Shown in pieces: positions 5,336 to 48,425 of a stretch of 64,000 nucleotides of DNA. The translations under genes and the position numbers were made by a program. Source of the stretch: Entoloma clypeatum (lineage: Eukaryota; Basidiomycota; Agaricomycetes; Agaricales; Entolomataceae); NCBI GenBank assembly GCA_963565915.1, contig OY751490.1, forward strand, positions 1,054,001 to 1,118,000, in the 5' to 3' direction. The notes under the pieces are model-generated. The model saw only the letters and a list, made by a program, of their open reading frames with translations, ran no database searches and was not told the DNA's origin. Position 1 is the first letter of the stretch, and each line of letters begins with the position of its first letter.

Positions 5336-5339
5336 AGTG

Positions 5340-6354: not shown

Positions 6355-6400
6355 GTATATTCAAACTGCCACTCGCTTATCCGTATTTCAAATCCCAGTT

Positions 6401-8420: not shown

Positions 8421-8770
8421 TGTTGAACATATCGCCAGATATGAACACACCATGTGCTTGTCACAGGAAGTGACTATAAGTCACTATTACCATATATGTG
8501 AGTTTATGGTACAACCACGGACGAATGACTTGTTTATACATTGTTTGTACAATGGTCCGTGCGCATATTGGATTAGTATAAATACCCATGTATTTAGTAC
8601 GATGAATCCTAACTTCTTGAACACCCCAGTTCTCTGAGTTAACTAACCAGCTAGTATAGCTTCTAGATTCTCTATAGTTACTCTTAACCAGGTCAGTAGA
8701 GCTTCCACTATGCCTTCATACCGATACGTCTTGAGCGCCCTTTGGGCTGCCTACGTCGGGTATTTCATTA
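8421..8770 (+). repeat. 5' LTR of the copia element
   Basis: 350 bp, TGTTGAACAT to TTTCATTA. The right boundary is set by the end of identity with the 3' LTR and by the CGACC duplication. TATAAATA at about 8578 is a candidate TATA box. The ATG of the extra ORF (8710) lies inside the LTR, in the probable R/U5 part. Confidence 0.95.
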
Positions 8771-27756: not shown

Positions 27757-27923
27757 TAAAATTGATACTGTCTCGAGGACTTAGCTCCTCCTGTCGTGCT
27801 TCTGGCATAGCGAATGGGTTGTTGGCGAAGTCTTCAAAGAAGCATGACATCTTGACTCGTCTGGTAGTTGCTCTCTTTGCTCTGGGTGAACCTAACAAGA
27901 TTTAGCAACTTGTTATGCATAAC
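27757..27923 (-). mobile_element. Left remnant of antisense gypsy A3 (leader)
   Basis: The reverse complement matches the family A leader just after the LTR (TTGCTAAATCTTGTTAGG; the frame reads RAKRATTRRV). Similarity stops at 27757. Its LTR is on the far side of the KDZ element (48426-49069), so the KDZ transposon is inserted at the LTR/leader junction of this copy. Confidence 0.85.
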
Positions 27924-27931
27924 CAGGTAGT

Positions 27932-28006
27932 CAACCTACACTGTATTGTAATATACGGTCTAGCAAACGCATACACTGTATGGTAAATTACGGAAGCAGC
28001 GAATTC
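27932..28006 (+). repeat. Left terminal inverted repeat of the KDZ element
   Basis: 75 bp, CAACCTACACTG to GCGAATTC. It matches the reverse complement of 48344-48418 with two differences (GCAAACGC here, GCGAACAC there), both of G/A type. Confidence 0.95.
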
Positions 28007-28029
28007 GCTAGAGCACCAGCGAATTTGCC

Positions 28030-28390
28030 ACGGCGGGCGGCGACAGAATGAAATGTGGCCGGCGACAAGTCAATGCGGCCGGCAACAAACTCTATGCCCC
28101 CAGCGACAAACTCAATGCAGCCGGCGACAACGATCGGCCGACGACAGTCAAATGAAATGTGGCCGGCGACAACACATCAATCGACAGTCAAATGTTGGCC
28201 AGTGACGATGTCAATCCAGCCGGCGACAACAGGTCAATCCAGCCGGCGACCCTCAAATGAAACGTGGCCGGCGAAAAAACTCAATGGTCACCGGCGAAAG
28301 GAAGGACCGGCGAAAAGGTTGAAAAGGACCAGCGAAAGGTGGCCGGCGACAAAACTCAATGCGGCCCTCAATGCAGCCGACACCAGGATT
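28030..28390 (+). repeat. Left subterminal array of GGCCGGCGACAA..TCAATG units
   Basis: Roughly 15 degenerate units of about 20-25 bp built on CCGGCGACAAACTCAATGCAG, i.e. the reverse complement of the array at the right end. The inverted arrays extend the terminal repeats and may be transposase-binding sites (inference by analogy with subterminal repeats of hAT- and KDZ-like elements). Confidence 0.85.
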
Positions 28391-28391
28391 G

Positions 28392-28660
28392 CCGTTGTCA
28401 TCTTGACGGAGTAGTCCGTCGCGGCATGAGACATTGATCTTGCCTGGACATGTCGCCGGCACAAGACATGTCCTGAGACCGGCGACACGGCGAACACGTA
28501 CCGGCGAAATGATGGTCGGCGAAACGATGGTCACCGGCGAAAGGAAGGACCGGCGAAAAGGTTTACCGGCGAAAGGAAGGGCGGCGAAAGGAAGGATTGG
28601 CGAAAGAATGTCGGTGAAAGGATGTCGAAAGGATGTCGGCGAGGAATCAAGCCGGCGACA
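28392..28660 (-). repeat. Inverted copy of transposase intron 4 and start of exon 5
   Basis: The reverse complement aligns with 37410-37755. It includes the TTCGCC-rich intron, the acceptor-proximal GTCTCAG, and the exon sequence ACATGTCTTGTGCCGGC..CATGTCCAGGC..GATCAATGTCTCATGCCGCG. The exon part ends at about 28392. This shows a piece of the internal gene duplicated in opposite orientation next to the left end. Confidence 0.85.
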
Positions 28661-28728
28661 ACAGTCATCTGTTACAAACCAGGAGGTGTTTCATGTTATC
28701 CTATTTTACATTGCAACCCCTAATATAC

Positions 28729-29558
28729 CTATTCCCCATCGCCCAACCGCCCACCCGCACCCTCCCCATCTTGTTCCTGCATTGCCCCACGATCTATATT
28801 GATGATCCTGTCGGCGATATTGTCGCTGACCATCTCATCAACCATTCGCCGGGTGTCAGCCGCCTGGCGCTGGGAAGTGTCAAGGGTGTGGATCCTGTGT
28901 ACCTCTGCATGGTACAGACGGTGTGCAGCATCCTTGTAGCTGATGCCCAGCTGTGCCTGGAGGGCTTTGACCTCCGCATGAAGCGCGAGAAGTTCTCTAT
29001 GGCTCAAACCCTATAGAAAGCGGTGAGAGCGAAACACACAGGGGAGGGAAATGACATACTGGTACAGCGGGTGCTGGGACAGTACCCCGGTTGATGAGGC
29101 CTGAAGACAGGGCTTCCATAGAAAGGGGCTGAGGAGCAAGGAGGTCAGCTGGATGAATAAGACGCTGATCGGCAAAACATAGCAAAAGGCTGCTTGGCGA
29201 AAAGACCGGCGAACAAGACAAACAAGACCGGCGAACACTGCACGGCGAATAACCGGCGAAGAGCATCGGCGAATGACCGGCGACAACTTGTCGGCCAACA
29301 AATATCGGCGACGATGCTCATCCGCACACATGAGGTGGATGGAGTCAAGGAATGTGGTGGTGGGTGGTATGGGGAACAGCTCACCCCTCCTGCGGCGTGC
29401 TCCACATCAAGAGAGCGCCACATCTCTGCCATGTTCAGGGCCAGATCCGTGGCAGGGACAAGGAAATTTGGCACCAGATACTCGTGCCCATCCGGGGTGG
29501 TACCTATCGTATAGCCCGGCGGCACATCGCGATGGGGTTGGTTGGATGGGGCAGACAT
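28729..29558 (-). CDS. KDZ gene A: small conserved companion protein
   Basis: Minus strand, three exons. Exon 1 starts MSAPSNQPHRDVPPGY (ATG 29558) and ends HAAGG near 29383 at GTGAGC. Intron 1 (to about 29165) is packed with TTCGCCGG words. Exon 2 reads RLIHPADLLAPQPLSMEALSS..PAPAVP; intron 2 runs GTATGT to TTTCTATAG; exon 3 reads LSHRELLALHAEVKAL..YKDAAHRLY and ends at TAG 28729-28731. Proteins with GYTI..DGHEYLVP and HRELLALHAEVKALQ..ISYKDAAHRLY recur beside KDZ transposases in mushroom genomes as far as I recall; the function is unknown. Coiled-coil character in exon 3 suggests a protein-protein contact role (inference). The exact acceptor of intron 1 is uncertain. Confidence 0.65.
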
Positions 29559-29749
29559 GAGGAGTAGCAGAAAAGAAGGCGACTGGTGGGAATTAGGTTG
29601 CCGATCATCACAATGATCAGGGCGGAAGTAGTCACATGTTAGAAAAGTTTGTTTTTTTTTCGTTTATTCAACGGCGAGCGGCGATTACACGTGTTTCCAA
29701 CTCATCTACCTACCTACTACCAACACATTTCCACAACACCGCCCTCAAG

Positions 29750-32511
29750 ATGTCCGCTACTCCCCGCAAGACCAGAGACATTGTCACCGACTTCGCCCGT
29801 TTCGACGCCACCATTCGCAAGGGGATGGCTGATGGGACCATCATTGAAGGGTTAAAGGGGATGAAGGGAAAGTTGGTGAGTAACCCCCGGAGCCGTTGTA
29901 TTGACCCAATTCTAACGTATTTCACGAACAGTTGAAATTGTTCAAGGAAGCGGCGGGGCAACCGGCGGCACCGTTTGCCAGGTTCGCCTGGATAAATCAG
30001 TTTGTCATGTCCTGGGCCCACAAGCGCAAAGAGGACGGGTTTCTGGAAGGTCAACGCCTCGCCCTGGCAACGTTCAACAGCCTGCGGGTACAAGAGGCAA
30101 CGGCCCCTGTCACTGCACTATTGGCTGGGCCAAGCAATGTGCCGACAGGAGCCGCGGGTGGACGTCCGACACCACGCCCCCTTACGGCGAAGGGCAAAGA
30201 ACCGGCGAAGGGCAAAGAACCGGCGAAGGGAAAAGAGACGGCGAAGGGAAAGCACACGGCGAAGGGAAAGGAAACAGCGAAGGGAAAGGAAACAGCGAAG
30301 GGAAAGGAAACAGCGAAGGAACAGGAGGGGGAGGGGAATGGCAGGCAATCAAGGGAGACAGGGGAAGCCCAGCGCGGGGGGTCAGAGGAGATGGAGGTGG
30401 ACGAGTTGTCGAAGGAGAAGATGGCGACGGCAAAGGAGAAGACAGAAACGGCGAAGGAGATAATGGCGACAACAACGGCAAAAACAACGACGGCAAAAAC
30501 GACGGCGACAACAATAACGACGGCGAACGAGAAAACGGCGACAACAACGGCGACGGCGAAGCAACCGGCAAAGAAGATAGTGGGTGCAGCAAAGGCAGGA
30601 ACGGGAAAGGTGGCGAAGGACGCACCTGCGAAGATGACGCTGAGGTCGAAGCCAACCGTGGCTTCAAGCAGTGACGAGGATGAGCAACCGGCACCAGCCC
30701 GAGGCAAGACGATGCAAGGCCGCAGGAATTACGCTCGGCGAGCCCCTGTCCACACCGGCAAATACAACGATCCGCTGCCTCGTCAGTGGGGGGACACGGC
30801 ATTTCGCGGCTCTTGTAGTTCTATCACACGAATCACGCAGGGTTGATCTGAGCGTCGACTTAACACACCGCCCAAGCCTTGCTCACCCACTTACCTACCT
30901 GTCTGCATGTAATGTGTAACATAGGAACTCAGTTCCTCCAGCACAATAAACTTGATTCAAAAAAAAAAAAAAAAAAAAAAAAATACAACAACATCCCGTG
31001 CGATAGGTGCAAATTGAAGGCGCAGCCATGTGAGAAGGAGAAGTTTGCTGCAGTGTGTTATGCCTACTACACGCTGAAGGGGAAATGCCTGACTGGTGGC
31101 GAGGCGCCTCAGAGGAAGAAGAAGACCAAGATGGAGGGCCGCAGTGCGTCACGAAAGGCGAAACCGGCGAAGGAGGCACCACGGCAGAAGGCGACAAAGG
31201 CGACTGAATATGTGGAGGTAGAGACAGAGGTGGACGGTGACGATGAGGACAACGAAGATAAGAACGGCAATGTGGCGACTGGCCCAGGAGCAACCACCTC
31301 CTGGCGACGACCCATCAGCGACGGCGAAGCCAGGGGTGACACTTTGCCGGCGGCGCGTTCGACGCTGCCCCCCGCCCTCACGGATGCGCGTGAGTAATTA
31401 TACTGAATCATTTCTTGGACATCATCTCACGCAGTCTGGCCTGGCAGTGGAGCTATACCTGGTGGACTGGTTCCGCCAGCAGGGAACCATCTCGCAGCGG
31501 GCATACCATACACAGAGTGGCGCCCTCTTCAAACTCAAAGGGCAGATCAACAAGCTCACGAACCGCTTCAACCGGATCCTCGAGGGGGCAAATGCACAGC
31601 TGGCGATGCAGGAGGAGAACGCGTACTCCTGCCTGTTGTACATGGAGGACACAATAGAGGGGTTGAACGTCAGGTTGACGGACATCGAGAACTACCTGGG
31701 TTTCGACCGCCGTCCCGCCCACAACGACCGCGAGTACTGGCGACCCTACCTTCCCCCACCACCAGAAGTCAACGTAGAGCGCCTCTGGCCTGCGGACCCC
31801 GAGGGGATGGACCCTGAGCACTACAAGATGGGGGGGTGGCAGCAGGACAAGGGTGCATGGCAAGATTCGCCCCTGCGACGGCCATCGACAATGAGTGACC
31901 CGCCGTCATCGACCCCTCGCGCCTCGCGCCGACCACCCTTCGCCGGATCCTTCGCCGAGCCCTTCGCCGAAGGTTCTGGGGCCACGCCTGGCCCATCTCG
32001 GCGAGTGCCATTCGCCGGTGGTCATTCGCTGGACAACCCCTACGCCGCTTCCTTCGCCGTTGGGCATTCGCCGGTCAGTCACCGGGATGACTCTCCCTCG
32101 CCGTCGCCCCCAGCTGTCACTGCCACCACCACTACCACCACCACTGCCGCTGCCACCATCACCGCCGCCTCCCACCCCGTCACACACCCCGTCGTCGCCC
32201 CTCCTGCAGTCTCCCACCCTGTCGTCGCCCCCCCTGCAGTCAACCTTATCACGCCGACACCAACGACATCCCAGGAGACGGCGCAAGGCACGGTGCAACT
32301 CATCCCCCCCCCACCTGCGAGTCCTATGGCTGTCGTCGCAGAGGAGGAATCTGTGATGGAAGAGGATGTGCCCGACACCACCGACACTCGTCCGGTGACC
32401 CTCGCCGCCTTGCCTGCCGATCCGCTTCAGCAAAGTCCTCGGCTAAGCGACCACTCACGTTTGCCATCTGCATCAGGCAGTACAGCGTCATCTGAGGGGA
32501 AACGTGGATGA
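29750..32511 (+). CDS. KDZ gene B: zinc-cluster protein, interrupted by a retroposon
   Basis: Divergent from gene A, 191 bp between start codons. Exon 1 is 29750-29875 and exon 2 starts at 29932 (intron with CTAAC branch). Exon 2 is interrupted by a retroposon (30769-30980, then TSD 30981-30989) and continues 30990-31389. Exon 3 is 31448-32511. Without the insert the frame is 808 codons. The N-terminal helical part is followed by repeated AKGKE units, then CDRCKLKAQPC and CYAYYTLKGKC, a C-x2-C-x6-C cluster pair in which one expected Cys is Tyr; then acidic sequence; exon 3 holds a conserved helical block (LYLVDWFRQQGTISQRAYH) and a Pro/Ser-rich tail with FAG repeats. Probably nucleic-acid binding; the role in transposition is unknown. 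With the insert present the frame stops at 30846, so this copy is disrupted. Confidence 0.7.
30769..30980 (+). mobile_element. Small polyadenylated retroposon (5'-truncated)
   Basis: 190 bp of unique sequence ending in AATAAA, seven bases, and a run of 25 A (30959-30983), flanked by the direct repeat AAATACAAC at 30760-30768 and 30981-30989. This is the signature of target-primed reverse transcription of a polyadenylated RNA. Removal with one repeat restores the reading frame of gene B through TGKYN-NIPCDRC. I see no tRNA-like promoter boxes, so a truncated mRNA copy or LINE end is more likely than a SINE. Confidence 0.8.
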
Positions 32512-32724
32512 AAGCGTAAGGGTGGGGATGACAGCAGCACAACTGGGGGAAAGCGGTCTCGCGCGTGAACACGGCTGGCGAATTTTTTATTTTTTATTCA
32601 CATATCCATTCAACTCGCTTTCATTTGTTTTACGATTTTCTTATTGCTTGTCATGTAAGTATTGTATGAAAGGCAATACTACTTTTGTCGTTTGGAACGG
32701 CGAAGGCCATTTGAGTGATCTGAA

Positions 32725-34807
32725 TCAGTTATTAGCGTGGGGATAATTCAAAATCAGAAACATGAATATCCTACCATTTGGTGTAATCAATGTTGGATCA
32801 ATCACTGAGTCGTTTGCTTGATTCAACATCAAAGCTCGTACAGCAGAGGCTGGGACACTATACTGTGGGTCACCATCCAGTGGGCCATTGATCGGCGCCG
32901 TGACCATCATGCCCTGTAGAACGAGTTCATTCATTTGCATTTGACCTACAGTCACATATCCGTCACTGGCGACACCTTCGGTAAAATGTTCTTCGGCGAA
33001 AGGTCCTTCGGCGACATCACCGGCGAACCTTTCTTTGGCGACATTCCTGACGGCGAATGGATCATCGGCAACAATGGGGCGAACACGGCAAATGTCGCCG
33101 GTGGTTATATGACTGCTCGCCGTCCCCTCACTTCCACTGGGCCATTCTGTATCAGACGCGCGATGACTTCCGCTCCCCTGTGAGACGCTATTGCGATGGC
33201 GCTGATCTGGGACAGCAAGCAGGCCATTCCTTGCTGATCGGCTCTGCCTTCGCCGTCCCCTTTGAGCTTCTGCTAGTATGGGGTATTGGCTTTCCACCTC
33301 GTGTCTGTCCTTGTCGACAATCTTCTTGAAGCGAAATGCCTTGCCTGCACCATGTCGATCCTGCCTTGATTTGACGTGTTCAAAAAAGGCCTCGATCTCC
33401 TTCTTGTGCAGGTTTTGTGGATCCTTGATAGTGAACCCCTGTGGGAGGTATTCAGCTGCCACCAAGAGTTGCGTGTTAGCTGCCAGAGTCCCAAATGGCA
33501 CATGGTTAGTACAGCCAGCCGACGCAAGAGCTGTCATACTTCCAATCAGCAGCACTCGATTGAGAACAAACTCGCTTACAGTAGTGTTTGGACAAGAACT
33601 CGCGTAGTAAGTGCTCAAGCTGACCCTTGGTCATTGTTCCAAAAGAGACATCGGGAACGAGGGGAAACCCATTCGGCGAAAGGGCTATTGTCGCTGCGAC
33701 GGCCAGCTGATCAGTTGCATTCGCCGGAGTCAGTCTGTCATTCGCTGGCGTCAGTCTTCCATTCGCCGGCGTCAGTCTTCCATTCGCCAGAGTCAGTCTT
33801 CCATTCGCCGGAGTCAGTCTTCCATTTGCCGGAGTATTCACCGCAATATTCGCCGGAGCATTCGCCAGAGTCAGTCTTCCAGCATCCGGCACATGTTTGA
33901 GGCCCTTAACATACTCCCCAAAAAAACGGCACATCTCATTCACCACGGTGGCCTTGCTCTCCACAAATGACGGTGCCTTTTTACCCATCAGTCCCACTGA
34001 GTCCTCATGACTTTAGCCAGTTAGCCAGTTTTGTAAACTGTCGCCGACCGGCGAACATGACGCACCACATTATTCTGTATTTCCCATCCTCTCTCGGGTA
34101 CCCATAGAATGTCATTGTCACTACACCCATCTCACGCCAACACTTTGTGGAGAAATCCTCCACTCTCGGGGTTGCCTTGGACTTTGCTAGCCTGTCGTCG
34201 TGGTTAGGTGTGTACACTGCAATCAGCGAAGACTTACCGGCGCTGTACCTCAGGAGGATTACCTTGTTCCTGATGCTGGTCCACTAGAATTTGGATTTCC
34301 TTCTTACCCTCAGCATCCATGGCTTCATAAATATTTTTTGCGGCACTCAACCTCTGTCCAAAATGTGCTCGGAGTGCAAGATTCAGATTCTCCACACCAA
34401 GCATCCTCTTCATTTCCTCCTTTACCTCATTCCCCCTCACCTGCCACACAACCTCCAGTCTACTCACCTTGCGATCATGTTGCCCCCTTGTGGTCACAAA
34501 TGGTCTCCAGTTGTTCCGGAGCCACTTTGCAAGTCTCTGTACTATGGTTAATTAATCCTGCAACACACATATATAGTCCAACTCATACCTCAGTCCGCTC
34601 CTTCACTTCCTTTGGTTCTATTGGAACATCCCCATTCTGTGTCCAGTAGTTGAGCAGTGGGAGCAAGATTGAAGTTACAATCTCGCGGCGTGCTGCTGAG
34701 GATGTTGCAGAGCGGTACTCATGCTTGAAATGTTGAAAGGTGGCTCGCTCCTCTGCCGTGTACTGACAGTCGGCTCGAGGCTTCCTTTGTGGCACAAAGT
34801 CGGACAT
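32725..34807 (-). CDS. KDZ gene C: conserved companion protein of unknown function
   Basis: Minus strand, convergent with gene B. Exons read as 34807-34589 (MSDFVPQRKPRADCQY), 34536-34238 (RLAKWLRNNWRPFV..HFGQRLSAAKNIYEAM), 34191 to about 34060 (VEDFSTKCWREMGVVTMTF), 33996-33580 (KAPSFVESKATVVNEMCRFFGEYVKGL) and 33530-32725 (SAGCTNHVPFGTLAANTQLL). The junctions 34588/34537, 34237/34192 and 33579/33531 have good GT..AG ends and keep frame; the donor near 34060-34050 is uncertain. The fourth exon contains tandem RLTPANG units made from TTCGCCGG words. Helical blocks and the Trp-rich LRNNWRP segment are conserved in proteins I recall near KDZ transposases. No enzymatic motif seen. Confidence 0.6.
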
Positions 34808-35083
34808 GGGTGGTGGGACGTGGAATTATTCAAGAAACATCCTCGATGGAACCCATTGGACATATATTGCTTTAGTGATTTTCGTGAACACATGTTTAAT
34901 ACTTTGATCATTGATGTTTAATACTTTGATCATTGATGATGTACAAAAATGATAGAAGACAAGCTTTTGCGGTGACAAGTGAACACGCGGAGATCATTGT
35001 GGGCATGTGTTCACCATGCGCCGTCGCATTTTTGCCCGTTTGAACCAATCCTCTCTCGTAAACCAATCCTCCCCAACCTTTCA

Positions 35084-38000
35084 ATGTCGAGCCGACGATC
35101 AAAGCGACAGAAGAGAATTCATGTATATGATGAGGATGAGGATTATCAGGTGGTTACAGTAAAGAAGGTGACTGTATTGACTCGACAAGGACTAATTACC
35201 CGAGATGTTGATGTCCCACTATACCCGCCCACCAATTCCAATCTACAATCAGATGACGAGGCAGGTCCAAGCACTGAGCCTGTCAGTGTTGCGATCCCTC
35301 CAGATGGCCCTTTTGGTGATGCTGGATGGGAAGGATTGGCGAGCGATGACATGAATCCAAATAGAAACAAGGTACCAGCTAATAAATGATCTCGAGTATA
35401 ATTACTAACAGGCATGGTAAAGCAACACTACTGGATGCAAGAATTTGTCCATCGTGCTGATTCCTTGTTGGCCGCATTACTCTCCCGAGAAGCTTTGCCG
35501 GCTGGTGGATACTGCCAGACATGCACTGGTGAGAAAAGAGCTGTGTGGAGGTGCATAGATTGTACCATAACACCTTTACTCTGTCATGGGTGCATGTGTC
35601 ATGCTCATCGACATGACCCATTGCACCGCATCGAGTGTTGGACTGGTAGTTTCTTTCGCTGTGCCGCTTTGTGGGAGGTCGGTACATACATTCTTGTTCC
35701 GCATCATCTGGACACAGACCTCTGCCCATCATTGGAATGGCAAGTCACATTCTTGGAAGAACTTCAGATCCAGCAAGATGAGAAGGAACAGCATCGACTC
35801 ACGGTGACAACCTTCGCCGGTGACACTACATTCGCCGGTGACACTAACTTCGCCGATGACGATGCATTCGCCGGTGACACTACCTTCGCCGGTCCTACTG
35901 CCGATGGGGTGGACGATGATGATACTGACTACCCGAGTACCGAACTCGGCGAGGATGACGATGAGGACGGCAACTTGATGCCATGCCACGGATATCTCGC
36001 CGAGAATCCCCTGAAGGCGGCGCCCTTCGCTGACAACTCAACGGCCAGCAATTCAGCTGCCGCCGAGGCACACACTAGTTCCATCCCCACCATACCCCAG
36101 CATGACTCATTGCTCAACCACTATGTGCATGTTGTTCACCCTAATGGGATCCATCATCTTGCGCTGGTTACCTGTCAGTGCCAAGGCCAGGAGAGTGTTC
36201 ACGGTGACCTGATGCACTGTCGCCTGGTGCCAACAACCTTCATCCGGTACAGAACTCTGTTCTCTGTCGCTGTTCTGGATGATTTCCGCCTTTCGAACCT
36301 CGAGTGCAAGGCCACGGCATACCAATACTTTCAAAAGATTCGTCGGCTCACATTTCCCATGGCACCTCTGAAGGCACCCAACCTCTATCAAGAACTGCTT
36401 CGGCTGTCGCGCATCTGGCGCTGGTTGAAGAAGAAGAAGTGGGCTGGTCATGGCCACAGAACGGCGACCGGCGAACAGACGGCACCCGCCAAATTTGGCA
36501 ACTTCTGTCCAGCATGTCCCCAACCAGGAATCAATCTCCCAGAACACTGGAAAGAGGATCCACGACGGTAGGTGCATCATCCCAATATCGTGTTCCTTGG
36601 TGAATCAAATGCACAGGTGGGTGTACAATCGGTCTTTTGTCGCCGACGGCAACTTCAAGGCCGACCATGTTCGGCAAAAAACCTCCGGCGAGGTGTGGCT
36701 GGATGAGGGTGCTGGTATGATGTCAAAGCGTCAAGACTATCTCGGATTCCTGAAAACCGCCATAGAGCGCCTCACAGTATGAAAGTTTCTGCATTGTTAT
36801 ACAGCCCAGAGATGCTGAAAATTTGATTTCTAGAAGGCACCATGTGAGAACCAGTTTCGTGCCATTGAGCTTGCTATGCTTGGCTCCAAGGCATGCGACA
36901 TCACTGGCATTGTCGCCGTTGCCTGTGCACGGCATGGGTGTTTTGTCCCCAATGCGATTGCCAATCTGTTCAAGGGTGAGGGCCAAAAAAATGCTGACTG
37001 GGTTCTTCTTATGGGTATCAAGTATGGCAATGTGGATGTGGAACAGATTGTCATGATCATCTACGACATCGTCTGTCAATACTTTGTCTATCTTTATGAC
37101 CGCATTGGTCACCTCCTCCCCCCTGGCCTGGTGCTTGACCGGGCTATCGGCCTCTTTCATGTACATGGCCACAAGGAAGAATGTTTTTTCCGGTATGCCA
37201 CGTCCTTCATTCCTGGCGCCGCCGTCACCGCCGGTGAAATCCTCGAGACTCTGTGGTCAAATTTGAACGTCATTACAACAACAGTACGGACGGCTACACT
37301 GGCAAATAGGGCCGAAACCATTGATGACCATGCAACAGACTCAAATCACAAGAAGATGTTGAACATGGGTAAGTATTCCACAATCATCCCTTTCTTGTTT
37401 CCCTGACGATTTCTTCGCTGATATCCTTTCACCGACATTCTTTCGCCAATCATCCCTTTCGCCGGTCCTTCCTTTCGCCGATCCTTCCTTTCGCCGGTCC
37501 TTCTTTTCACCGGTGACATCCTTTCGCCGACATTGTTTCGCCAATCCTCCCTTTCGCCAATCCTCCCTTTCGCCAATCCTCCCTTTCGCCAATCCTTCCT
37601 TTCGCCATCCTTCCTTTCGCCGGTTACCATCCTTTCGCCGGTACATGTTCGCCGTTTCGCCGGTCTCAGTACATGTCTTGTGCCGGCAACACGTCCAGGC
37701 GAGATCAATGTCTCATGCCGCGATGGACTACTTTGTTAAGATGACGACGGCAATCACCCATGATCATGTGAACAACTGGGAGACAGAAATTAAAGCTGCT
37801 GAAGCACGTCGCCTCGCCGATGTCACAGCAATGGATATTCTACATACTCATACAACCGAGCCCGAGGAGCCTGTCGATATAATGCCAAGTGAGATGCACA
37901 CCCCGGTGGAAGAATGGATAAGAATGGCCCTCAATATCGAGGAGAAACAGTGCGTGTTTTATGTGTCACTCACTTGTAATCCTTCTGATTTCTGGGCAGG

Positions 38001-39032
38001 ATTGAGTTAGAGGACCGTCTCCGGCATTGGAAAAAGAACCCTCGGCCTGACGATGCAAAACAGATTGAACACCTTCAAGATAATCTCACATCCCAGCTGA
38101 CTGTGCTCGATACATTGCAACAGCAGGTTGGGGTGCTGGGAACAGTGGCACCAGATACATCAACATCAGATGATCCAACAGCCTTTGACGATCTTGATGA
38201 TGATGAGCATGAAGGCGAGAGCGATGACGACGGCGACGTCCCCAGCCGCTATACTGTCACCGGCAACCTCCCACATGAACACCGGCCACTTGTCTTGCCT
38301 TCCACTGCGTCTGGTCGCAATCAAGCTCACTGTGCTGTAGAGGTGGCCGAGCGAACGAGGCAGGCCACACGGCATCTCAATGCACTTTGCACCATCATCG
38401 CCGACAAATCCTTTCACTACTCCCATGTCATCCGAGTAGCACCCCGGAAAAGTGTCAAAACTCGAGCTCGAGCCGCGATCATCAAGCTCAATCAGCAGAT
38501 TTCTTTCCATTCTCGAGTATATACGATGCAGGGCGGCCCTCGGCCGGCTGCAAGTTTCGCCGGACGTCATGGCGAGATTTCGGGTTTTAAGCCGAGACGA
38601 CCTGAAGTGCAGCACGGCTGTTCTGGATCCCAACATCCAGGGTTCAACAACTCTACACCTGTCCTGGATATGGCAGATGCAACTGGGTATCAATCCTACG
38701 TCGCCGGCGGCCGTGCTAGAATGTTAGTCGCCGTGTATTGTCGCCGTGGATCTTCTGATCGCCTTTTAGTCCAACATGTTCATTGGTTACATGCACGAGC
38801 ACGAAGCCACCGCTGGGAGGAGGAAGTCATCCTTGTCCAATATGAGATGGGTTGGACGACCCGATATTTTATCCATCAACGGGACATTTGGGACGGCCGG
38901 CGACAAGTCGCCGCTTCGCCGGGACTCATGGCACATGCAGCGAGAAAGGCGGCGATGTGGCAGATCCTTGTGACAGATGCTGAAGATGAATTTGCGGGTA
39001 CTACAAGGTCATATGTGCGGATAATTGAGTAA
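35084..39032 (+). CDS. KDZ gene D: CxC2-type KDZ transposase
   Basis: Seven exons: 35084-35371, about 35412-36567, 36617-36776, 36834-37368, 37670-37949, 38000-38722 and 38770-39032, most with clean GT..AG junctions. N-terminal basic region MSSRRSKRQKRIHVYD, then the CxC2 cluster (CQTC, WRCIDC, LCHGCMCHAH, DPLHRIECWTGSFF), then CPACPQPGINLP. The catalytic part has ADGNF (36650), YDIVCQY (37065), FHVHGHKEEC and GEILETLWSNLN (37230), which I take as the D, D and E of the KDZ transposase fold. The C-terminus WEEEVILVQYEMGWTTRYF is typical. Exon 2 holds FAGDT repeats from TTCGCCGGT. Problems: the phase does not match between exons 1 and 2, and a one-base shift is needed near 38515 in exon 6, so this copy is probably not functional. 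Confidence 0.85.
37369..37669 (+). other. Intron 4 of the transposase, a TTCGCC array
   Basis: 301 nt, six times longer than the other introns of the gene; GTAAGT donor and GGTCTCAG acceptor chosen because they restore NMVHVLCRRHVQARSM. It consists almost wholly of CCTTTCGCCRRTCC units of 13-20 bp. A related array is in intron 1 of gene A. Confidence 0.8.
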
Positions 39033-39611
39033 TGTTTTCACATTTACACATAAAATAAGGAAAAAAAACATGCATGTAACGTGTAACGATGTGACACATG
39101 GCATAAGCACATTGTTATCTGTCACATTTACCGCCATCTTCTTCTCATCCACAGTCTATTGCAACTACAATGCCCTCTTCCTCCACCTCAACTTTGTTTA
39201 TGACTGCTCCTCCTCGTCCCGATCCAAATACAGTAGTTGCATACTGTGAGTCACGCTTCCGTGCCGCTTTGCTTGGTATCCAGCGGGCGCCGGCGAATCA
39301 GCATGGGTGGATGAAGGATATACTTGCCTCGGAATTGGTAAGCTGATGTGCCGATTAAATAATCTGTATACTCACATATCATAGGCCGTGTCGATGCGCT
39401 TTGTCGGCCTGGCGGCAAGTGCTGGAGTGCCAATAGACATTCCAATCATCACTCGCACACTGTCGTTCACCGATCTGGGTGGATATGGAAACGACGCTCA
39501 TCCCCATTTTCCTTGGTCAGCCGTGCTTGATGGGAGCTCCCACCTGACGCAAGAATTTGGCATTGTGCCGCACTACCACCTCGACTGGTGGAACCACCCA
39601 GAGCGCCCCCA

Positions 39612-39980
39612 TGTTACGGACTAACGACTACGGACATATACGCTTACTTTTTCACTTTTACTCATCGGCCCCCGCTTACACATATCGTATTATACTTTAT
39701 TTCCTTTAGTATACTTCGCTCCCGCGCTGCCTCGCTTTCCGCAGCTGTCTGACTCACTCCGCAGTCAGCTTACTCATTAGTACATAGCCTTCCGCAGTCG
39801 CCTTACTCATGCGCACTGCCTTCCGCAGTTACTGACTCATTTGCTACCACTCATAGTCAGTACTATATAAACCTCATGTACCATAGCTACATTCCTTAGA
39901 TTTAGCAATCACATTGCTCTTCGCCTTTCCACTTCCTGCATACTCTGCCCGAACCTTGGAACGGTTTGTTAAGCATAACA
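39612..39980 (+). repeat. 5' LTR of gypsy A2
   Basis: TGTTACGGAC to AAGCATAACA. It contains TATATAAA at about 39863, repeated TCCGCAGT, and TGACTCA at 39750-39756 and 39833-39839, the Gcn4/AP-1 consensus. The last ATG of the transcribed part is at 39876. Confidence 0.97.
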
Positions 39981-40771
39981 AGTTGCTAAATCTTGTTAGG
40001 TTCGCCCAGAGCGAAGAGAGCAACTACCAGACGAGTCAAGACGTCGCGCTTCTTTGAAGTCTTCACCAGTAACCCATTCGCATCACCAGAAGCCCGACAG
40101 GAGGAGCTAAGTCCTCGAGACAGTATCGATCTTACACTCATCCAGCAGTACATCGAATCGGAGATCCGTCGCATCCTACAGCAGGTGCTTGACGAAGAAC
40201 TAGACAACGACGAGCATCGCCCCCACGGCGAGATAGCAGAGAGCATCCATCTTGCTCGACAACACCAGATCGCGCGTTACAACGCCCGACAGAACGAACT
40301 CGAAAGCTTTCGCGTTCAAGAAGGACCTCAGACAGGTCGGATCACAGAGATCAGAGAGTTTATCGGTGTCCAGACAACCATTATCAGAAGATTGATTAGG
40401 ACGCTCACATCGAGACGTCCCAGAGCCGCATCATCACGTCGTACTCGAAGCAACAGATCTACGCCCACTTCACAACCACCAAACAACAGACCGAGTACGG
40501 TCGTTGGGCACGAAACGAGAGACTTGACCCCTTCTCACAACCGACAGAGGCGCAGGAACAGAGATTCCTTAGAGATCTACAGAGGAAATACCCCGAACGT
40601 TTTGCCACCGATTCAGCCGACGAGTCCCCTGACAAATTTGCTTTTGACTCCGCGCAGTCAGATATCGAACAGACGCCTAGAACAGGGACTTATTTTCAAC
40701 CCTTACCTGTATCCCGAACCCCATCTTCATCCCAACAACCCGACCCCTCTCCTTCTCCGCAGACTCTAGAC
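39981..40771 (+). other. ATG-free gypsy leader with long open frames
   Basis: From 39879 to 40771 no ATG occurs in any frame of the plus strand, yet the frame at 39993-40769 is open for 258 codons and reads protein-like (LIQQYIESEIRRILQQVL; NARQNELESF). The gag frame is open upstream to about 40407 (YAHFTTTKQQTEYGRWARNE..RFLRDLQRKYPERF), overlapping it in another frame. Possible readings: non-AUG initiation with a frameshift, an unrecognised splice, or an ATG-free leader for scanning. Both long frames are also kept in A1. Confidence 0.55.
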
Positions 40772-41638
40772 ATGGCAGAAGCTCCGGCAGTACAAACAAT
40801 GGATACATCCAAGATCATCAAGGATCCTGGGATGTTCAAGGACAGACACACCTTTGACGAGTGGTGGAAAGCCACCAAACTATACATCAGGTTCCAAAAG
40901 AGCCTCACAGATGATCAGAAGATTCTTGCGGTGCTATCCCGCATGATGGAAGGGTCCGGCAAGCACTGGGCCAGTAACAAGTTAGACGCTCTTGCCGTTG
41001 ACAACGAGAACATCACCTGGCTAGGATTCTCCGATGATATTGCCACACAATTCTCTATCGCCAACAAATCAGTCGCTGCCAAAGCAAGACTCAAAGTTCT
41101 GAGACAAGAGAAACGCACCGTCGACGAATTCTTGGACGAATTCGAAGAGCTCTTGAAGCTGTCAAACCTTGGCGAAGAAACTGGGAAATACATCCTAGAA
41201 AAGAACGTCAACCGCAGAATATCTGAACAAGTGGCTAGTGATGCCAAGACGTACTCCGAGTACGCAAAGGAGATCCGAAACAAGGGACGACAGATGGAAG
41301 GACATGCAATGGTCATCCGAGGTGGCGGCGACATGCGCACCGGATCAGGTACCACTTATGGTGGTCAAGGCAAGGCCATGGAGATCGACAAAGCAGGAGT
41401 GGCCCGTTGCTACAACTGTCAACGTTTCGGTCACCTCGCTAAAGACTGCAGCGCTCCAAAGAAGAAAGATGGTCGCAAGTGTTTCAACTGGGACCAAGAA
41501 GGCCATATTGCGCGCAACTGCCGCAAGCCGAAGAAGAACTCCGGAAGGGTTAGGAAGGTGTCTGAGGAAGATGCCGAGAATGATGAAACCACAATCTTAG
41601 AAGCCGACGAGAAGGATTTTCCCGAAGGGTCCGATTAA
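40772..41638 (+). CDS. gag: Gypsy A2 Gag
   Basis: 288 aa from the first ATG after the leader. A retrotransposon gag core occupies about residues 30-170 ([31 protein letters not shown]). The C-terminal half has zinc knuckle 1 [14 protein letters not shown] (intact) and knuckle 2 [14 protein letters not shown], where the second Cys is Trp (TGC to TGG; A1 keeps Cys). This may weaken RNA packaging. The protein may really extend upstream, as the gag frame is open for 122 more codons. Confidence 0.9.
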
Positions 41639-44600
41639 ACGACGCTAAGTCGCGACCCTTATCTATTAAACGGACTTGCTTGCCTTGTATGACTGCAGAC
41701 AATAGAACCTATGTCATCCCTGCCAAGCGAGCCGCTGCGTCGACTAAGATTGTGAAGGGAGACAAACCTCCGAAACAACGAGAGATCAGGTTGTTAGCTC
41801 AACTCAAAACACGACGAGGACCAAAGGTCATTCGACCTGAGGTTGATAGCGGATGTGAACGCACATGCATCCATCCCAGAATAGTACGCGAACAGAACCT
41901 CCCCACGCAAGGAATACCGCCCATAGCAATTCTAAATGCGGATGGATCACCAAATCGACAACAAAAAGCGAACCAACTTGCCGAAGTCAAGCTGGATTTG
42001 GGAACACATCAGGAAACCATGGAAGCGATGGTACTGGACATTGGGAGAACCGACATGTTCTTGGGACATGACTGGTTGGTACACCACAATCCTACGATCA
42101 ATTGGACAACCGGCGCTGTAACGTTCAACCGGTGCCCAACAACATGCCGAACCAAACATTCGGATTTCAGGGTTAACCTTGATGGTCGCAAACACCGGGT
42201 TCGCATGGTTGAGGTGCGTGACAAAGATGCACCCAAGAAGTGGGATCAGAAATGGAAGCCTGGAGACCCTATATTGGAAGCTGTCACTCCCACACCACCT
42301 CCCACAACCAAACGACCCTCATATGTTGATCGGTTTACTCACCTCTTCGAGAAGGAGAACTTTGATAAGATCCCGAAGGAAAGGGAATGGGACCATGGTA
42401 TTGAACTTACACCGGACGCACCAAAGGAACTAGGGGGAAACACATATCCCATGACACAAAAGGAACAAGAGGAATTGGACGCATTCATTGACAAGGGTCT
42501 AGCAACTGGAAAGATCTGCCCGTCCAAATCCCCTTATGCTTCCCCTTGCTTCTTCATCAACAAGAAAGATGGTTCCAAACGATTGGTACAAGATTACCGC
42601 ATGGTCAACAAATTCACGGTCAAAGACAAATTCCCACTCCCTCGCATCTCCGATCTCTTGGACGTGCTGAAAGATGCAGTCTACTTCAATAAGATGGACA
42701 TCATGTGGGGTTACAACAATGTCCGGATTAAAGAAGGCGATGAATGGAAGGCTGCCTTCCTTACCAGTCGAGGATTGTTTGAACCATTGGTCATGTTTTT
42801 CGGCCTTTGCAACTCCCCAGGAACGTTCTCTCAGATGATGGCTAGTCTATTCCGGGACCAGATCCGCCGATGCATCTGCGTGATCTACATGGATGACATC
42901 GTGGTTATTGGTAAAACCAAGGAAGAACTCACGCAAAACACCGAAGAAATTCTGCAGATCCTATCGGATAATGACTTGTTCCTGAAGGAGAAGAAGTGTT
43001 TCTGGGAAGTAACAAAATGCCCCATATTGGGATATGTCGTTGGTGAAGGACGTGTCGAGATGGAAACCGAGAAAGTGGACACGATCCGAAACTGGCGAGC
43101 ACCCACATCAAAAAAGGAAGTCCAGAAGTTCCTTGGGTTTGCTAACTTCTATCGGCGCTTCATTGAAGGATACTCAAACATCGCGAAACCACTTACCGCG
43201 CTCACAGGCAGCACTGCGTTTACTTGGGGACCAACGGAACAAAAGGCATTTGAAGGTCTCATACAGGCGATCACATCGGCACCAGTCTTGGCATTACCAA
43301 AACCAGATGGACAGTTCAGGGTCGAAACCGATGCATCGGGCTATGCAATTGGGGCTGTACTCTCTCAAAAACAGGACGACAAATGGCATCCTATTGCGTT
43401 CTTGTCGCGGACCATGTCCGCGGCCGAACAAAATTATGAGATATACAACAAAGAGCTCTTGGCAGTCATGGAAGCACTGAAAGATTGGAGACACTATCTG
43501 CTCGAAGCCAGGGAACGCTTCGAGATCTTAACTGATCACAAGAACCTGGAGTATTTCCGCCGTCCTCAGGACCTAAATCAACGACAAAGGCGCTGGAAGA
43601 TGAAGTTACAAGACTATGACTTCGAACTACGGCATGTGCCTGGCAAGACAAATGCAAAAGCGGACATCCTGTCACGCTTACCCTGGTATGAAACAGAACT
43701 CGAACCGCAAGACAGTGACCAAATGCTCAAGGAGGGACTATTCTTGAAACGATTGGAATCAGAAGATGTGGTACAAATGGAGATGTTCACGGAGGAACAA
43801 TTCTTTGAAGGGGGTGAAACATCTGATTCCATCAAGATTGGAAACGTCACAACCATCGAAAATCCGTGGATCGCACGCATCAAGGGTTCAAACCGCATGG
43901 AGACAGAAGTAGCCCAGGGTCTAAAAAAGAATCCTCATTGGTATCAACAGGAAAACGGCATCACATATGCAGGCGAACGAGTCTATGTTCCACCGGACCC
44001 ACAACTGCGTCAAGAACTAATGTTTGAATCACACGATGCACCAGTGGCTGGACATCCAGGACAGTATCGAACACACGAACTCCTCACTCGCACCTACTGG
44101 TGGCCTACCATCCTGCATGATGTAAAGAAGTACGTAAAGGGTTGCGACACCTGTCAGCGCAACAAGATCAACAGACAGAAACGACATGCTCCGCTACACC
44201 CCCATGCAGCACCAAGTCATCCATGGGAAGACATAGGGATTGACGTCGTGGGACCGATACCAGAGTCTGATGGAAAGAATGCGATCCTGGTCATCACGGA
44301 TAGACATTCGAAGATGCTTCATCTCATTCCAACAACTGTGGAATTATTGGCTGAAGGATTAGCCAAGATCTATCGGGATCAGATATGGAAGCTCCACAGA
44401 ATCCCCAAGAAAATCATCAGTGACAGGGGACCACAGTTCGCCGCGAAGTTCATGGAGATACTTTGCCGCATGTTAGGGATCAAAAGGAACCTGTCCACCG
44501 CATACCATCCACAGACGGATGGACAAGCCGAACGATCGCATCAGGAAACAGAAGCGTTCTTACGAAACTTCGTCAACCATCTGCAAGATGATTGGGCTGA

Positions 44601-45288
44601 ATGGATCGCAATCGCCGAATTCCAGTACAATGACAAAGAACATCAGGCGACGAAGCACACACCATTCTACCTCAACTATGGCTTACATCCTTGGAAGGGA
44701 GAACTTGTGTTGGAAGACACCAACCCGGCTGCCAACAGCTTCTTGGAAAAACTCAAACAAGCACGAGAAGAAGCCAATGCAGCACTGAAACAGGCACAGG
44801 ATCAGATGAAAAAGACAGTTGATACGAGACGAAGTCCGTCTCGGAACTACCGCATTGGAGACAAGGTGTGGCTGGAAGGGACTAACATCAGGACTAACCG
44901 TCCCTCGAAGAAGCTTGACGCACTCCGACATGGACCGTTCAAAGTCCTAGAGAAGAAAGGAGCTAGCGCATACCGTCTTGATCTTCCCAAAACCTGGAAA
45001 ATGATCCACCCTGTGTTCAACGAGACCCTGTTGTCGCCATACAAAACCCCGAAGTATGCCATTCAGAAAAAGAAGCCAGCCCCTGATCCGATCATCGTCG
45101 AAGGACGAGAAGAATACCATGTCTCCACGATCCTGGACTCTCGGAAATTCCGCGGAAAGATCCAGTACCTTGTCCAATGGGAAGGGTATGGCCCAGAAGA
45201 GAACACGTGGGAACCTCGGAATAATGTTCAGAATGCTCAAGACTTGATCCGAGATTTTCATCGGCAAAATCCATCGCGTCCACGATAA
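41587..45288 (+). CDS. pol: Gypsy A2 Pol
   Basis: Open in -1 frame relative to gag; the first ATG is at 41689, TAA at 45286-45288, about 1200 aa. Order: aspartic protease ([13 protein letters not shown] near 41840), RT ([24 protein letters not shown] near 42888), RNase H ([27 protein letters not shown]), HHCC zinc finger ([14 protein letters not shown]), integrase with D (IDVVG), D (SDRGPQF) and E (GQAERSHQE), and a chromodomain ([22 protein letters not shown], about 45115-45210). No stop or shift is seen, so the enzyme set looks functional. It is made either as Gag-Pol by -1 frameshift or from its own ATG. Confidence 0.95.
41614..41620 (+). promoter_or_regulatory. Candidate -1 frameshift site G GAT TTT
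   Basis: Lies 16 bases before the gag stop and in the right phase for a -1 shift into pol, whose frame is open from 41587. The same heptamer is known as a slippery site in a dianthovirus, from memory. It is conserved in A1 (about 3637). Not as canonical as the A7 site of gypsy B. Confidence 0.35.
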
Positions 45289-45406
45289 AAAGATAAACCG
45301 CGAAATCCATTTTCCATACCAATTTTCTGTCACATCGAGTTCCCCGCTCCAACTCTTCTCGCCCAACACGCCGTTCTTCTTATACTTTTCGAACCTCATC
45401 TCCACC

Positions 45407-45772
45407 ATGTCCAACATCACCACCTCCACCGATGCTTCCGACATCAACCCCACCATTACCACCCTCATTGGCGAAGCGCTCTCCATGCGCAACCAGATCC
45501 ATGCGCTTGAAACCTCCGTCGCCGACATCCTCCACCGACAGATGCATATCCGTCTCCACACCCTATCCGACTTGCCAACCGCTCCCACCGCTGAGGAGAA
45601 ACTTATCCTCAAAAATTATACCAACACCCTTGCCGTCGAGAATCAACGCCTTCGCCTCGCCGTTCGAGGTTTAGAGTTTGCCACGGCGGTAAACGATGAA
45701 CTAATAAAGGACTGGGGCAACCGAGCTGATCCTACCTGGACTGATCCAAACGGCAACGATGGATGGGAGTAG
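45407..45772 (+). CDS. Third ORF of gypsy A2, 121 aa, between pol and 3' LTR
   Basis: ATG in a good context (CACCATGTCC), 121 codons, MSNITTSTDASDINP start. Mostly helical with a coiled-coil look (IGEALSMRNQIHALETSVADIL; AVENQRLRLAVRGLEF) and an acidic end. There is no Cys cluster and no transmembrane segment, so it is not envelope-like. No such frame is part of the standard gypsy plan. I do not recognise a family. Confidence 0.6.
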   Translation: MSNITTSTDASDINPTITTLIGEALSMRNQIHALETSVADILHRQMHIRLHTLSDLPTAPTAEEKLILKNYTNTLAVENQRLRLAVRGLEFATAVNDELIKDWGNRADPTWTDPNGNDGWE

Positions 45773-45809
45773 GTAGTCTGTGAGGACACAGACCTTGAGG
45801 AGAGGAACA

Positions 45810-46178
45810 TGTTACGGACTAACGACTACGGACATATACGCTTACTTTTTCACTTTTACTCATTGGCCCCCGCTTACACATATTGTATTATACTTTATTT
45901 CCTTTAGTATACTTCGCTCCCACGCTGCCTCGCTTTCCGCAGCTGTCTGACTCACTCCGCAGTCAGCTTACTCATTAGTACATAGCCTTCCGCAGTCGCC
46001 TTACTCATGCGCACTGCCTTCCGCAGTTACTGACTCATTTGCTACCGCTCATAGTCAGTACTATATAAACCTCATGTACCATAGCTACATTCCTTAGATT
46101 TAGCAATCACATTGCTCTTCGCCTTTCCACTTCCTGCATACTCTGCCCGAACCTTGGAACGGTTTGTTAAGCATAACA
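45810..46178 (+). repeat. 3' LTR of gypsy A2
   Basis: 369 bp, four differences from the 5' LTR, each converting CG to TG or CA in one copy. A purine tract (GAGGAGAGGAACA) lies just before it. Confidence 0.97.
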
Positions 46179-48126
46179 CCCCAGCAGATTTTGGATGTCG
46201 ACACGCTCACCCAGTGTCTCGAAGTCCACCACGGCGTGCTTGGTCACCCGCTGGGCGGCGAGACTGTCGCCGGTCCATTCGCCGGTCCATTCGCCAGTCA
46301 CTCTCTTGCCGACTATCCATCAATTCCCCCTCCCCATATCTCTCTGAACTCTCAGGCAGCGGCGGGGTACCGCGCCGTGGCCCTTGACGCCTCTCACCAA
46401 CTCCAAGCGGTGGCGAACAGGCTTCATGCTCAGGAAACAGCGTCGGCGAATGCGTTGCACTTGGCCATCCGTCGTGCTAGTGGTTTCAACATGCTCTATG
46501 AGCACGCCATGACTCTTGAATCCCTGGAACCCGCAAGGGGACACATTGCAGGACCACCATATCAGCCATCGGCAACCATTGGCAATCGCGCCGGTTCGCC
46601 GGCGGCCACTCCCCAACCCTCATCCTCATGGCCGATGCGCAAATCAACCACCGCTCAAACGCAACGGAAAGGTAGGCCGAGGAGCAAGAAAGTCACCCTC
46701 CAGGATCTGGCCACCATGATCCAGGAGACTGCAGCGGCTGAACGCGACCGATACCAGCAGCACCCCAGCCTGAAGTGGACCTGGGGCGTCGATCTCGAAG
46801 TTGACGACATCAGGAAGCTGGTGAGAGCAGCAGAAAACCAGTACCAGCTGCCGCATTCTGGATATGACGAGTCCCTAGCCAACGGCGGTTTTGCAGGTAA
46901 CAACTCTGATGGCCCAGGAGAAGCCCCCTTCTCAGACATGATTGGTCGCCATTCCGCTGCCTCGCCATCTCTCATCACCGACCTTGGCACCCTCAATATT
47001 CCCCACCATTTCAGAGAGTACCCACTTCGCCGAGCCCACACGGCCACGCCGGCAGACAACCTGCCACATGGGGCAGGTGACAACTCCGCTGCTGCTTTTC
47101 TTCCTGCCCCTTCCCTCACCGCTCTCAATGCCGAGTGTGACTCACCGATTTTCACTCCAATCCCCAGGTCACCCCCAACTCAAACTCCGGCCACCTCCAC
47201 ATCACCTGTCGCCGATCACCAGGAGGTTGTCGACATTATCATGGGCGATATCAGTGATGAACAAGCGACCTCTGCGGGCGATATTCCTCTCCACCTTGTC
47301 ATGCAGACACTGGAGGATATGAGTGACACCGACTCGCCATCCCAACATTCGCCGGCCGACCCTTTGCCGTCCAAACCTTCGCCATCTTCGCCGTCTTCGC
47401 CGCCTTCACTGTCTTTGCTGTCTTCACCGTGCCACCCTTCGCCGAAGCCTGTTGCGCCAATAAGGCGTTCACTGTCCATTGATTCCCCGGTCACTCCTTC
47501 CACCGCGATCTATCATCAGACTCTGGACGTTGCCATGAACGTCCTAGAGGAGGAGGAGAGTGACATAGAGGATGACCAGAGTGGGCCCCCACCGTCAACA
47601 CTATTTGACAATGCACTGGCGGCTCTTGAGGATTCCGATGAAGCCGACGACGAGGCTGATGGCAGCAACGAAACTGACGGCACCCATAACGGTGACAGTG
47701 ACGGCGACAATCACGGCGACAATCACGGCGACGGCGAACCTGACGGCGAAACTGACGGCGAAACTGACGGCGAAACTGACAACGACAGCGACAGCAGTGG
47801 ATCCGTCACCAACGCACCTACTGCCGCCAACGTCGCCAGCGCACTTGAAGGTGTCAACTCCGATGTCTCTGATAGTGAGCCAACTGGACCCCCCCCTCTC
47901 ATTCGTTCGCCGGGGCTCTTTGCCCATGCCCCTGGGGCTCAATTCCAACGCCGCCCTTGGACCGCTGAAGATTTAGCTGATGTGCGTGTCCCTGGCAGTT
48001 CAAGTGATACTGGGTCATCGGAGAGCAAGGGTGCAGAGTGATATGCCTATAGCGGGGTACCATTGTTATTACATTATACTATATACAGATGTCTACCCTT
48101 CTTCTCTACAATAAAATGAGCCTTGG

Positions 48127-48340
48127 TTGTCGCCGGCCATATTGAACCACATTGAATTGTTGTTGCCGGCTGCATTTACTGTTGCCGGCTGCATTGAGTT
48201 TGTCGCCGGCCACATTGACGTTGTTGCCAGCTGCATTGAGTTTGTCGCCGGCTGCATTGACTGTCACCGGCTGCGTTGGGTTTGTCGCCGGCTGCATTGA
48301 GTTTGTCGCCGGCTGCATTCATTCTGTCGCCGTTCGCCGT
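48127..48340 (-). repeat. Right subterminal array of the KDZ element
   Basis: About nine units of 20-25 bp on the plus strand of the form TTTGTCGCCGGCTGCATTGAG, with variants TTGCCGG and TCACCGG. It is the inverse of the array at 28030-28390, directly inside the right terminal repeat. Confidence 0.9.
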
Positions 48341-48343
48341 GGT

Positions 48344-48418
48344 GAATTCGCTGCTTCCGTAATTTACCATACAGTGTATGTGTTCGCTAGACCGTATATT
48401 ACAATACAGTGTAGGTTG
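48344..48418 (-). repeat. Right terminal inverted repeat of the KDZ element
   Basis: 75 bp, the reverse complement matches 27932-28006 with two differences. It ends GTAGGTTG, and 15 bases later antisense gypsy A3 LTR sequence resumes. Confidence 0.95.
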
Positions 48419-48425
48419 AGTATGT

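Follow-up and report, generated by a model that had tools for sequence, protein, structure and literature searches.

We report here that a 64,000-nucleotide stretch of the Entoloma clypeatum genome (contig OY751490.1, positions 1,054,001 to 1,118,000; hereafter the window, whose own numbering is used below) contains a KDZ transposon of the cut-and-paste type, which carries five genes, has ends of the CA..TG type and is flanked by a 7-bp target duplication. The five genes, named A to E and including the KDZ transposase D, constitute one mobile unit between the same ends. The element is dotted along its length with a 7-bp word, CCGGCGA (TCGCCGG on the other strand), which is specific to the family and is replaced in a sister family, F1. 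We consider it probable that this is a five-gene KDZ transposon that carries, along its whole length, a family-specific, CGG-based word read by a protein encoded by the element itself.

The two 83-bp termini of the window element (Table 1) agree at 78 positions when one is set against the reverse complement of the other, with three differences in the first seven bases and two in the next 76; the 75-bp inverted pair with two differences described in a sequence-only reading of this DNA was therefore borne out from position 8 inwards. The ends begin CAGGTAG and CACATA, and subterminal arrays of units near 21 bp, mutually inverted, lie on both sides, in keeping with the inverted arrays of ~22-bp units noted in that reading. 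Its extent for the element, 27924..48425, stood at the left end, and comparison with other copies placed the right end at 48426. The 20-kb transposon that it described is a real unit, but the transposon proper accounts for about 13.9 kb (13,935 bp) and a nested 6.6-kb gypsy retrotransposon for the rest, because the nested element is absent from all 11 other long copies, ten of which are continuous across the site; the site is deleted in the eleventh, C11a. A 28-base terminus pattern with up to three mismatches found 83 forward and 78 reverse matches (161) in the 60.08-Mb genome of 20 contigs, and its reversed control found 0 in either direction in the same 60 Mb.

The length of the target duplication was deduced from 20 end pairs, the window included. 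The flanking 7-mers agree at 7/7 positions in ten pairs and at 6/7 in two (the window and C11a); the remaining pairs show 5/7 in one case (C1a) and 2-3/7 in seven. Lengths of 4, 5, 6, 8, 9 and 10 gave no comparable signal at these pairs, and the 8-bp target previously proposed was rejected, since the 7-bp signal stands alone among the lengths compared. The single mismatch between the two duplications of the window copy is a change from CpG to CpA. Two short elements (L042 and L043, G000:C10) have identical flanks in inverted orientation and were therefore counted as one insertion that was duplicated with its surroundings. The empty site that the sequence-only reading had envisaged was also found: the window copy was inserted into an older copy of a gypsy family (flanks 27756-27923 and 48427-48594), and the uninterrupted sequence of that family reads TGCTTAAC at the insertion spot. 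As a separate observation, the left flank of copy C2a (L017, G000:C2:676900) ends in GGTTGAGTATGTG, which is the right-end sequence of another copy and abuts the left end of C2a directly, without a duplication.

Pairing of the termini from 141 listed places, with one terminus entered twice and the pairs counted by hand, gave at least 42 head-to-head pairs of 2.0-27.7 kb among the matches listed. We compared 11 longer pairs besides the window and eight of the 15 pairs below 5 kb. All 11 long copies run colinearly with the window from one shared terminus to the other; their pieces of at least 250 bp are 88-98% identical to the window and their array pieces 78-84%. Internal deletions occur in several of them (C5a, C1a, C11a, C2b and others), some have received foreign inserts, and their lengths range from 5.4 to 19.5 kb, being 13.5-13.8 kb in four. 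Outside CpG, the copies diverge from the column majority by 0.35-2%. No fewer than 17 loci have matches to the full gene set, ordered A-B-C-D-E and within at most 31 kb, and of these 12 have both termini and five have one among the matches listed; these loci were tallied by hand from lists of best candidates, so that the numbers are lower bounds, and other loci keep some of the genes only. The arrangement A minus, B plus, C minus, D plus, E plus, as first read from the window, is correct, and the claim that A-E travel together inside one mobile unit was upheld by the long copies, by the five-gene loci and by F1.

Gene D encodes a KDZ transposase, with its KDZ domain at 36627-37346 and the stretches DGNFKADH, YDIVCQY and GEILETLW all present. 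It matches PF18758, the KDZ transposase domain, with an E-value of 3.8e-38 (131.8 bits against a cut-off of 26.6) and CxC2 (PF18803) with 8.9e-16. At least 118 exon-level matches to PF18758 were listed in this genome. Pfam searches gave no significant match for A, B, C or E: A, B and E gave nothing at E-values up to 1, TET/JBP included, and C gave only a non-significant match to RtcR (0.26), although a very divergent PE-type TET/JBP could escape these searches. Sequence comparison of B, of its cysteine cluster and of C with the PDB gave nothing credible.

The word CCGGCGA/TCGCCGG occurs 60 times in the window element, exons included, or once per 232 bp, as against three times in the 43.5 kb of the window outside the element and not at all in the nested gypsy element. 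Order-2 Markov copies of the element contained at most 11 words in 200 runs. When sorted by hand, 26 of the 60 words fall in non-coding arrays (16 in the left array, five in the right array and five in an array within gene D) and the remaining 34 across the gene-bearing body with its introns. Across the genome, the word occurs 5,694 times, on average once per 10.5 kb, and the reversed word 4,434 times. The 12 copies hold 556 words in 162,217 bases and the eight short elements 105 in 25,907, so that these 661 words represent 11.6% of all occurrences in 0.31% of the genome. The excess extends to the exons that were tested (E from C2a, B from C6a, and parts of C and D): E has six words against 1.9 expected, B four against 1.1, D six against 2.4 and C four against 0.6, counts reached by 1, 4, 10 and 2 of 500 synonymous-codon shuffles, respectively. 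Because it occurs on both strands and in several reading frames, the word is a feature of the DNA and not a protein repeat.

The word also occurs in elements that have only their ends in common with the family. The eight short elements are 2.0-4.8 kb long and enclose non-coding DNA, so that no terminus pair among those compared was found around unrelated genes; tblastn gave no match between them and A-E. Against the 11 long copies, blastn returned 353 rows of at most 173 bp, and all but one of these (32 bp) touch the outer 250 bases of the short elements. They nevertheless contain 50, 10, 15, 2, 2, 8, 9 and 9 words, compared with maxima of 7, 3, 3, 1, 2, 2, 4 and 4 in simulations of their own make-up; the excess holds for seven of the eight, and L043 merely equals its maximum. 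These elements provide the strongest control: since the word is present where only the termini are shared, it accompanies the ends, as would be expected of a cis requirement for the family's machinery, and the short elements appear to behave as non-autonomous derivatives. At least one of the seven remaining short pairs (C1:358942) is a deletion derivative, in which matches to A and B were found. In another place, the short element L044 (G000:C2:1402594) directly adjoins gene C pieces of a copy of the window family, as if it had been inserted into a larger relative.

In the sister family F1 (L029-L032), all five genes are found in the same order and orientation as in the window, and the length without F1's own gypsy insert is 13,943 bp against 13,935 bp. 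The ends of F1, CAGGTAGTCAACCTACATTG and CACATAGTCAACCTACATTG, are of the same two types as the window ends. Amino-acid identity to the window family is 37-49% for A, 28-39% for C, 30% for E, and 31-45% in short stretches only for B; for D it is 39% over the N-terminal half and reaches 66-78% over the catalytic part. Because F1 keeps all five genes in order between related ends, A, B, C and E are conserved parts of the element rather than chance cargo. The word itself is not kept: F1 contains no CCGGCGA and 52 copies of ACCGGCA/TGCCGGT, against a simulated maximum of 10; this second word occurs four times in the window element. That the F1 word is a decayed CCGGCGA was considered and rejected, in that the next base is C, T or G, and not A, in 42 of the 52. 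A large inverted segmental duplication with 99.7-99.8% identity (G000:C9:3440500-3474500) surrounds F1, and one of its arms lacks the gypsy element.

More distant relatives keep smaller parts of the set. Family F3 has C, D and E in a different arrangement, together with one CACATAGTCAACC end; 12 kb past its D there is also a relative of A. F2, a fragment, comprises D and E, and F4, in a decayed state, comprises C, D and E; no related ends of either were found in the stretches examined. The cluster was thus not met with widely apart from such ends, which are both present in F1 and of which one is present in F3. In F3, the word CGGCAA[CT] occurs 21 times, compared with at most six in simulation, and CGG is contained in all the family words. 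Relatives of E at 28-47% identity, F1 among them, were found, several of them beside other KDZ loci. Further clusters with diverged A, C or E, for example at C10:546-554 kb and C1:1522-1542 kb, have no KDZ domain nearby among the matches listed.

Which protein might read the word? Gene B encodes a basic protein with a cysteine cluster, which in other copies has the spacing C-X2-C-X6-C-X8-C-X2-C-X6-C. This is the spacing of the fungal Zn2Cys6 clusters, which read CGG triplets, and the likeness thus covers both the cysteines of B and the CGG core of the words. All six cysteines are kept in each of the nine other copies where this region could be located (it was not found in C11a and C5a), and the sole Pfam match of the isolated cluster is Zn_clus (PF00172, E 0.015). 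The sequence-only reading had suggested that A, B, C and E may form a transposition complex; B looks more like a DNA-binding protein and is the best candidate for the predicted word-binding protein.

The copies also record the pressure to which the family has been exposed. C has changed to T at 8.9% of CpG sites across the copies, compared with 0.3-0.5% in other contexts, and 5.5-15.7% of the bases in CpG differ from the column majority, depending on the copy. The decay is mostly from CpG to TpG or CpA, on both strands, at about 18 to 30 times the rate of C-to-T change elsewhere. This is the pattern that methylated, silenced DNA would be expected to leave, and it represents a pressure under which an anti-silencing tag would pay.

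How, then, might the word be used? We propose that an element-encoded DNA-binding protein, most likely B, would bind the word and that this binding would single out the element's own DNA from the rest of the genome. The bound protein might either prevent silencing by cytosine methylation or assemble the transposition complex; D would perform the chemistry at the ends, with A, C and E as conserved helpers. Use of the word in anti-silencing is a possibility that we put forward tentatively, and a pure role in transposition is put forward with similar reserve.

Several observations weigh against this reading. The ends of F1 show no matching duplication, so that the mobility of F1 rests on its related ends and its conserved gene set. 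In the stretches of F2, F3 and F4 examined, B was not found by sequence and A was not found, apart from the relative beyond F3's D. In two of the short elements the word occurs just twice; the short elements also hold ACCGGCA 1-11 times, and in L040 it is as frequent as the window word (11 and 10). Since ACCGGCA is followed by A in all 40 of its occurrences in the short elements, as expected for a decayed ACCGGCGA, it is best read there as decay of CCGGCGA. The F3 word is less sharp, since it also occurs 13 times in the window element and 16 times in F1 (at most 11 simulated in each). B differs from the fungal Zn2Cys6 proteins in that its PF00172 score of 15.8 bits lies below the 21-bit cut-off and in that B of F1 has five of the six cysteines (CERC...CVRCAKLKERC); the whole of B has no Pfam match. 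Finally, the CpGs within the motif are not better kept than others (0.832 against 0.814 intact after insertion). No lasting protection is therefore visible, and a role in transposition fits as well.

The most serious competing explanation, which we regard as possible but doubtful, is that the word is a binding site of D, through its CxC2 cysteine cluster, which originated in the subterminal arrays and spread inward; the short elements would be built from such arrays and would depend on them for mobilisation, and anti-silencing would not be involved. Subterminal repeats are bound by element proteins in other DNA transposons, and the words are indeed densest near the ends, with 21 of the 60 in the subterminal arrays and five in the gene D array. 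The presence of the word in short elements with the same ends, and the lack of lasting protection of the motif CpGs, would also be expected. Against this explanation stand the 34 of 60 words in the gene-bearing body, where the exons tested exceed their synonymous-codon shuffles. In addition, D is the best conserved of the proteins between the families and yet the word has been wholly replaced, although this argument is weak given the low identity of the N-terminal part of D.

It is less probable, and in our view unlikely, that the word has no function, short repeats having grown in a GC-rich element through gene conversion and slippage and been carried along, with each family drifting to its own word. 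Array lengths and positions do vary between copies, low-complexity protein stretches built of the unit are tolerated, and the motif CpGs decay like any others. Such drift is difficult to reconcile with the enrichment of the word in non-coding elements that share only the ends, with its scatter outside the arrays in several frames and on both strands, with the ceiling of 11 words obtained from the element's own trinucleotide make-up, and with the CGG core common to the different family words. It is very improbable that A, B, C and E were once host genes or neighbours, picked up by chance and playing no part in transposition. Their lack of significant Pfam matches would suit such an origin, but the same five genes stand in the same order in F1, where A, C and E show 28-49% identity; three of the genes, C, D and E, are met again at F3 and F4, with A beside F3; and the copies are recent, as their divergence outside CpG indicates, whereas the gene set is far older.

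The preferred reading, a tagged element whose word is read by its own protein, has parallels in plants. TnpA of maize En/Spm, an element of the CACTA superfamily, binds motifs repeated in the subterminal regions and affects transposition as well as methylation; those motifs are confined to these regions, whereas the word of the window element is dispersed over its full length. VANDAL elements are plant transposons of the MuDR superfamily. According to the parts available to us of the report on VANDAL/VANC in Arabidopsis (Hosaka 2017, PMC5735166), these elements resemble the present case in their family-specific motif arrays, in the differing motifs of related families and in the presence of a companion gene besides the transposase. 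The VANC motifs lie in non-coding regions, whereas our word also lies in exons, and VANC binding and demethylation are proven (PMC5735166), whereas a reader of our word is predicted from sequence. We speculate, as a possibility that we would not press, that anti-silencing of the VANC kind evolved independently in fungal KDZ elements: a zinc-cluster companion would read a family-specific, CGG-based word spread over the entire element, coding sequence included, protein and word would change together between families, and non-coding relatives would exploit the system. If the word is such a tag, this would be a second origin of the Arabidopsis strategy, in another kingdom and another transposon superfamily.

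Within the KDZ group, the exact ends, which the sequence-only reading had taken to be new, are already on record in the sections available to us of Kojima 2025 (PMC12730594) and of the report on Cryptococcus KDZ1-3 (PMC12810828), and intact Pleurotus KDZ elements preceded by CxC2 are described in the corresponding part of PMC7641404. Kyakuja elements of Agaricomycetes (Kojima 2025, PMC12730594) have a KDZ transposase, CA..TG ends and a 7-bp target duplication in common with the window element. Those of Laccaria are described in that section without terminal inverted repeats and with TET/JBP, whereas the window element has an inverted repeat of 83 bp, gives no match to TET/JBP and carries four other conserved genes together with a family-specific word. 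Zisupton (PMC12730594) and Cryptococcus KDZ1-3 (PMC12810828) are similar in their KDZ transposase, long inverted repeats (139-241 bp in Cryptococcus), size of ~9-11 kb and exact ends. They differ in their duplications, which are 8 bp in Zisupton and KDZ1 and 4-8 bp in KDZ2 and KDZ3, and in Cryptococcus also in having CxC1 instead of CxC2; the same sections describe neither a companion set nor a dispersed word for these elements. In the literature covered, we found no report of family-specific words in KDZ elements and no role for such companion genes; the founding KDZ paper (Iyer 2014), outside that coverage, may mention companions. KDZ transposons are common in this genome and widely reported among mushrooms; four companion genes of old standing are now tied to the transposase inside exact ends. 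The dispersed word, common to the non-coding partners and switched in F1, offers a handle on how an element tells its own DNA from that of its host.

The features of the window copy are collected in Table 1. A substitution-based gene finder over-predicts here, because the copies evolve mostly by CpG decay, and a codon-bias model was used instead; this model still adds false small genes and exons, so that the exon limits given for A, B, C and D are approximate.

Table 1. Features of the KDZ transposon copy in the window (positions in the window).
Feature	Position	Strand	Remarks
Complete KDZ transposon copy	27924..48426	+	13.9 kb (211-bp insert included) plus nested gypsy element
Left 7-bp target duplication	27917..27923		GCATAAC; 6/7 against right copy
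Left terminal inverted repeat	27924..28006	+	begins CAGGTAGTCAACCTACACTG
Left subterminal array	28033..28658		16 of the 60 TCGCCGG/CCGGCGA motifs
Gene A	28732..29558	-	small protein, ~150 amino acids; exons near 29379-29558 and 28732-29010
Gene B	29750..32511	+	basic protein with cysteine cluster; interrupted in the window copy
211-bp insert in gene B	30771..30981		contains a 25-A tract; AAATACAAC on both sides
Gene C	32725..34807	-	unknown fold
Gene D	35084..39032	+	CxC2 and KDZ transposase; 3' end approximate
Motif array read as gene D intron	37391..37760		5 motifs; intron reading by inspection
Gene E	39170..48041	+	split by gypsy insertion at 39611/46179
Nested Ty3/gypsy long terminal repeat (LTR) retrotransposon	39612..46178	+	6.6 kb; TG..CA ends; duplication CCCCA on both sides
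Right subterminal array	48127..48337		5 motifs
Right terminal inverted repeat	48344..48426	-	reverse complement begins CACATACTCAACCTACACTG
Right 7-bp target duplication	48427..48433		GCGTAAC

The window copy is a damaged and not an intact member of its family: B and E are split, and the fifth cysteine of the B cluster is a tyrosine, which leaves five of the six. Uninterrupted B and E were found in other copies. The insert in B is absent from all eight copies that span the site (C14a, C11a and C5a do not span it) and looks like a short interspersed element or another retroposed sequence. The gene D array is related, in inverted orientation and at 84-95% identity, to the stretch 28387-28626 of the left subterminal array, as if it had been copied from there into an intron.

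The nested gypsy element, assigned by inspection of its open reading frame, has its pol frame at 41587-45288. It belongs to the same gypsy family as the older copy into which the window transposon had inserted, and it is a young element that entered the transposon later; this family is thus both a target and a later invader of these transposons. A related LTR lies at 9994-10363 of copy C13a (joined L019+L020), and the gypsy element in F1 has two LTRs (L029, about 1917-8506).

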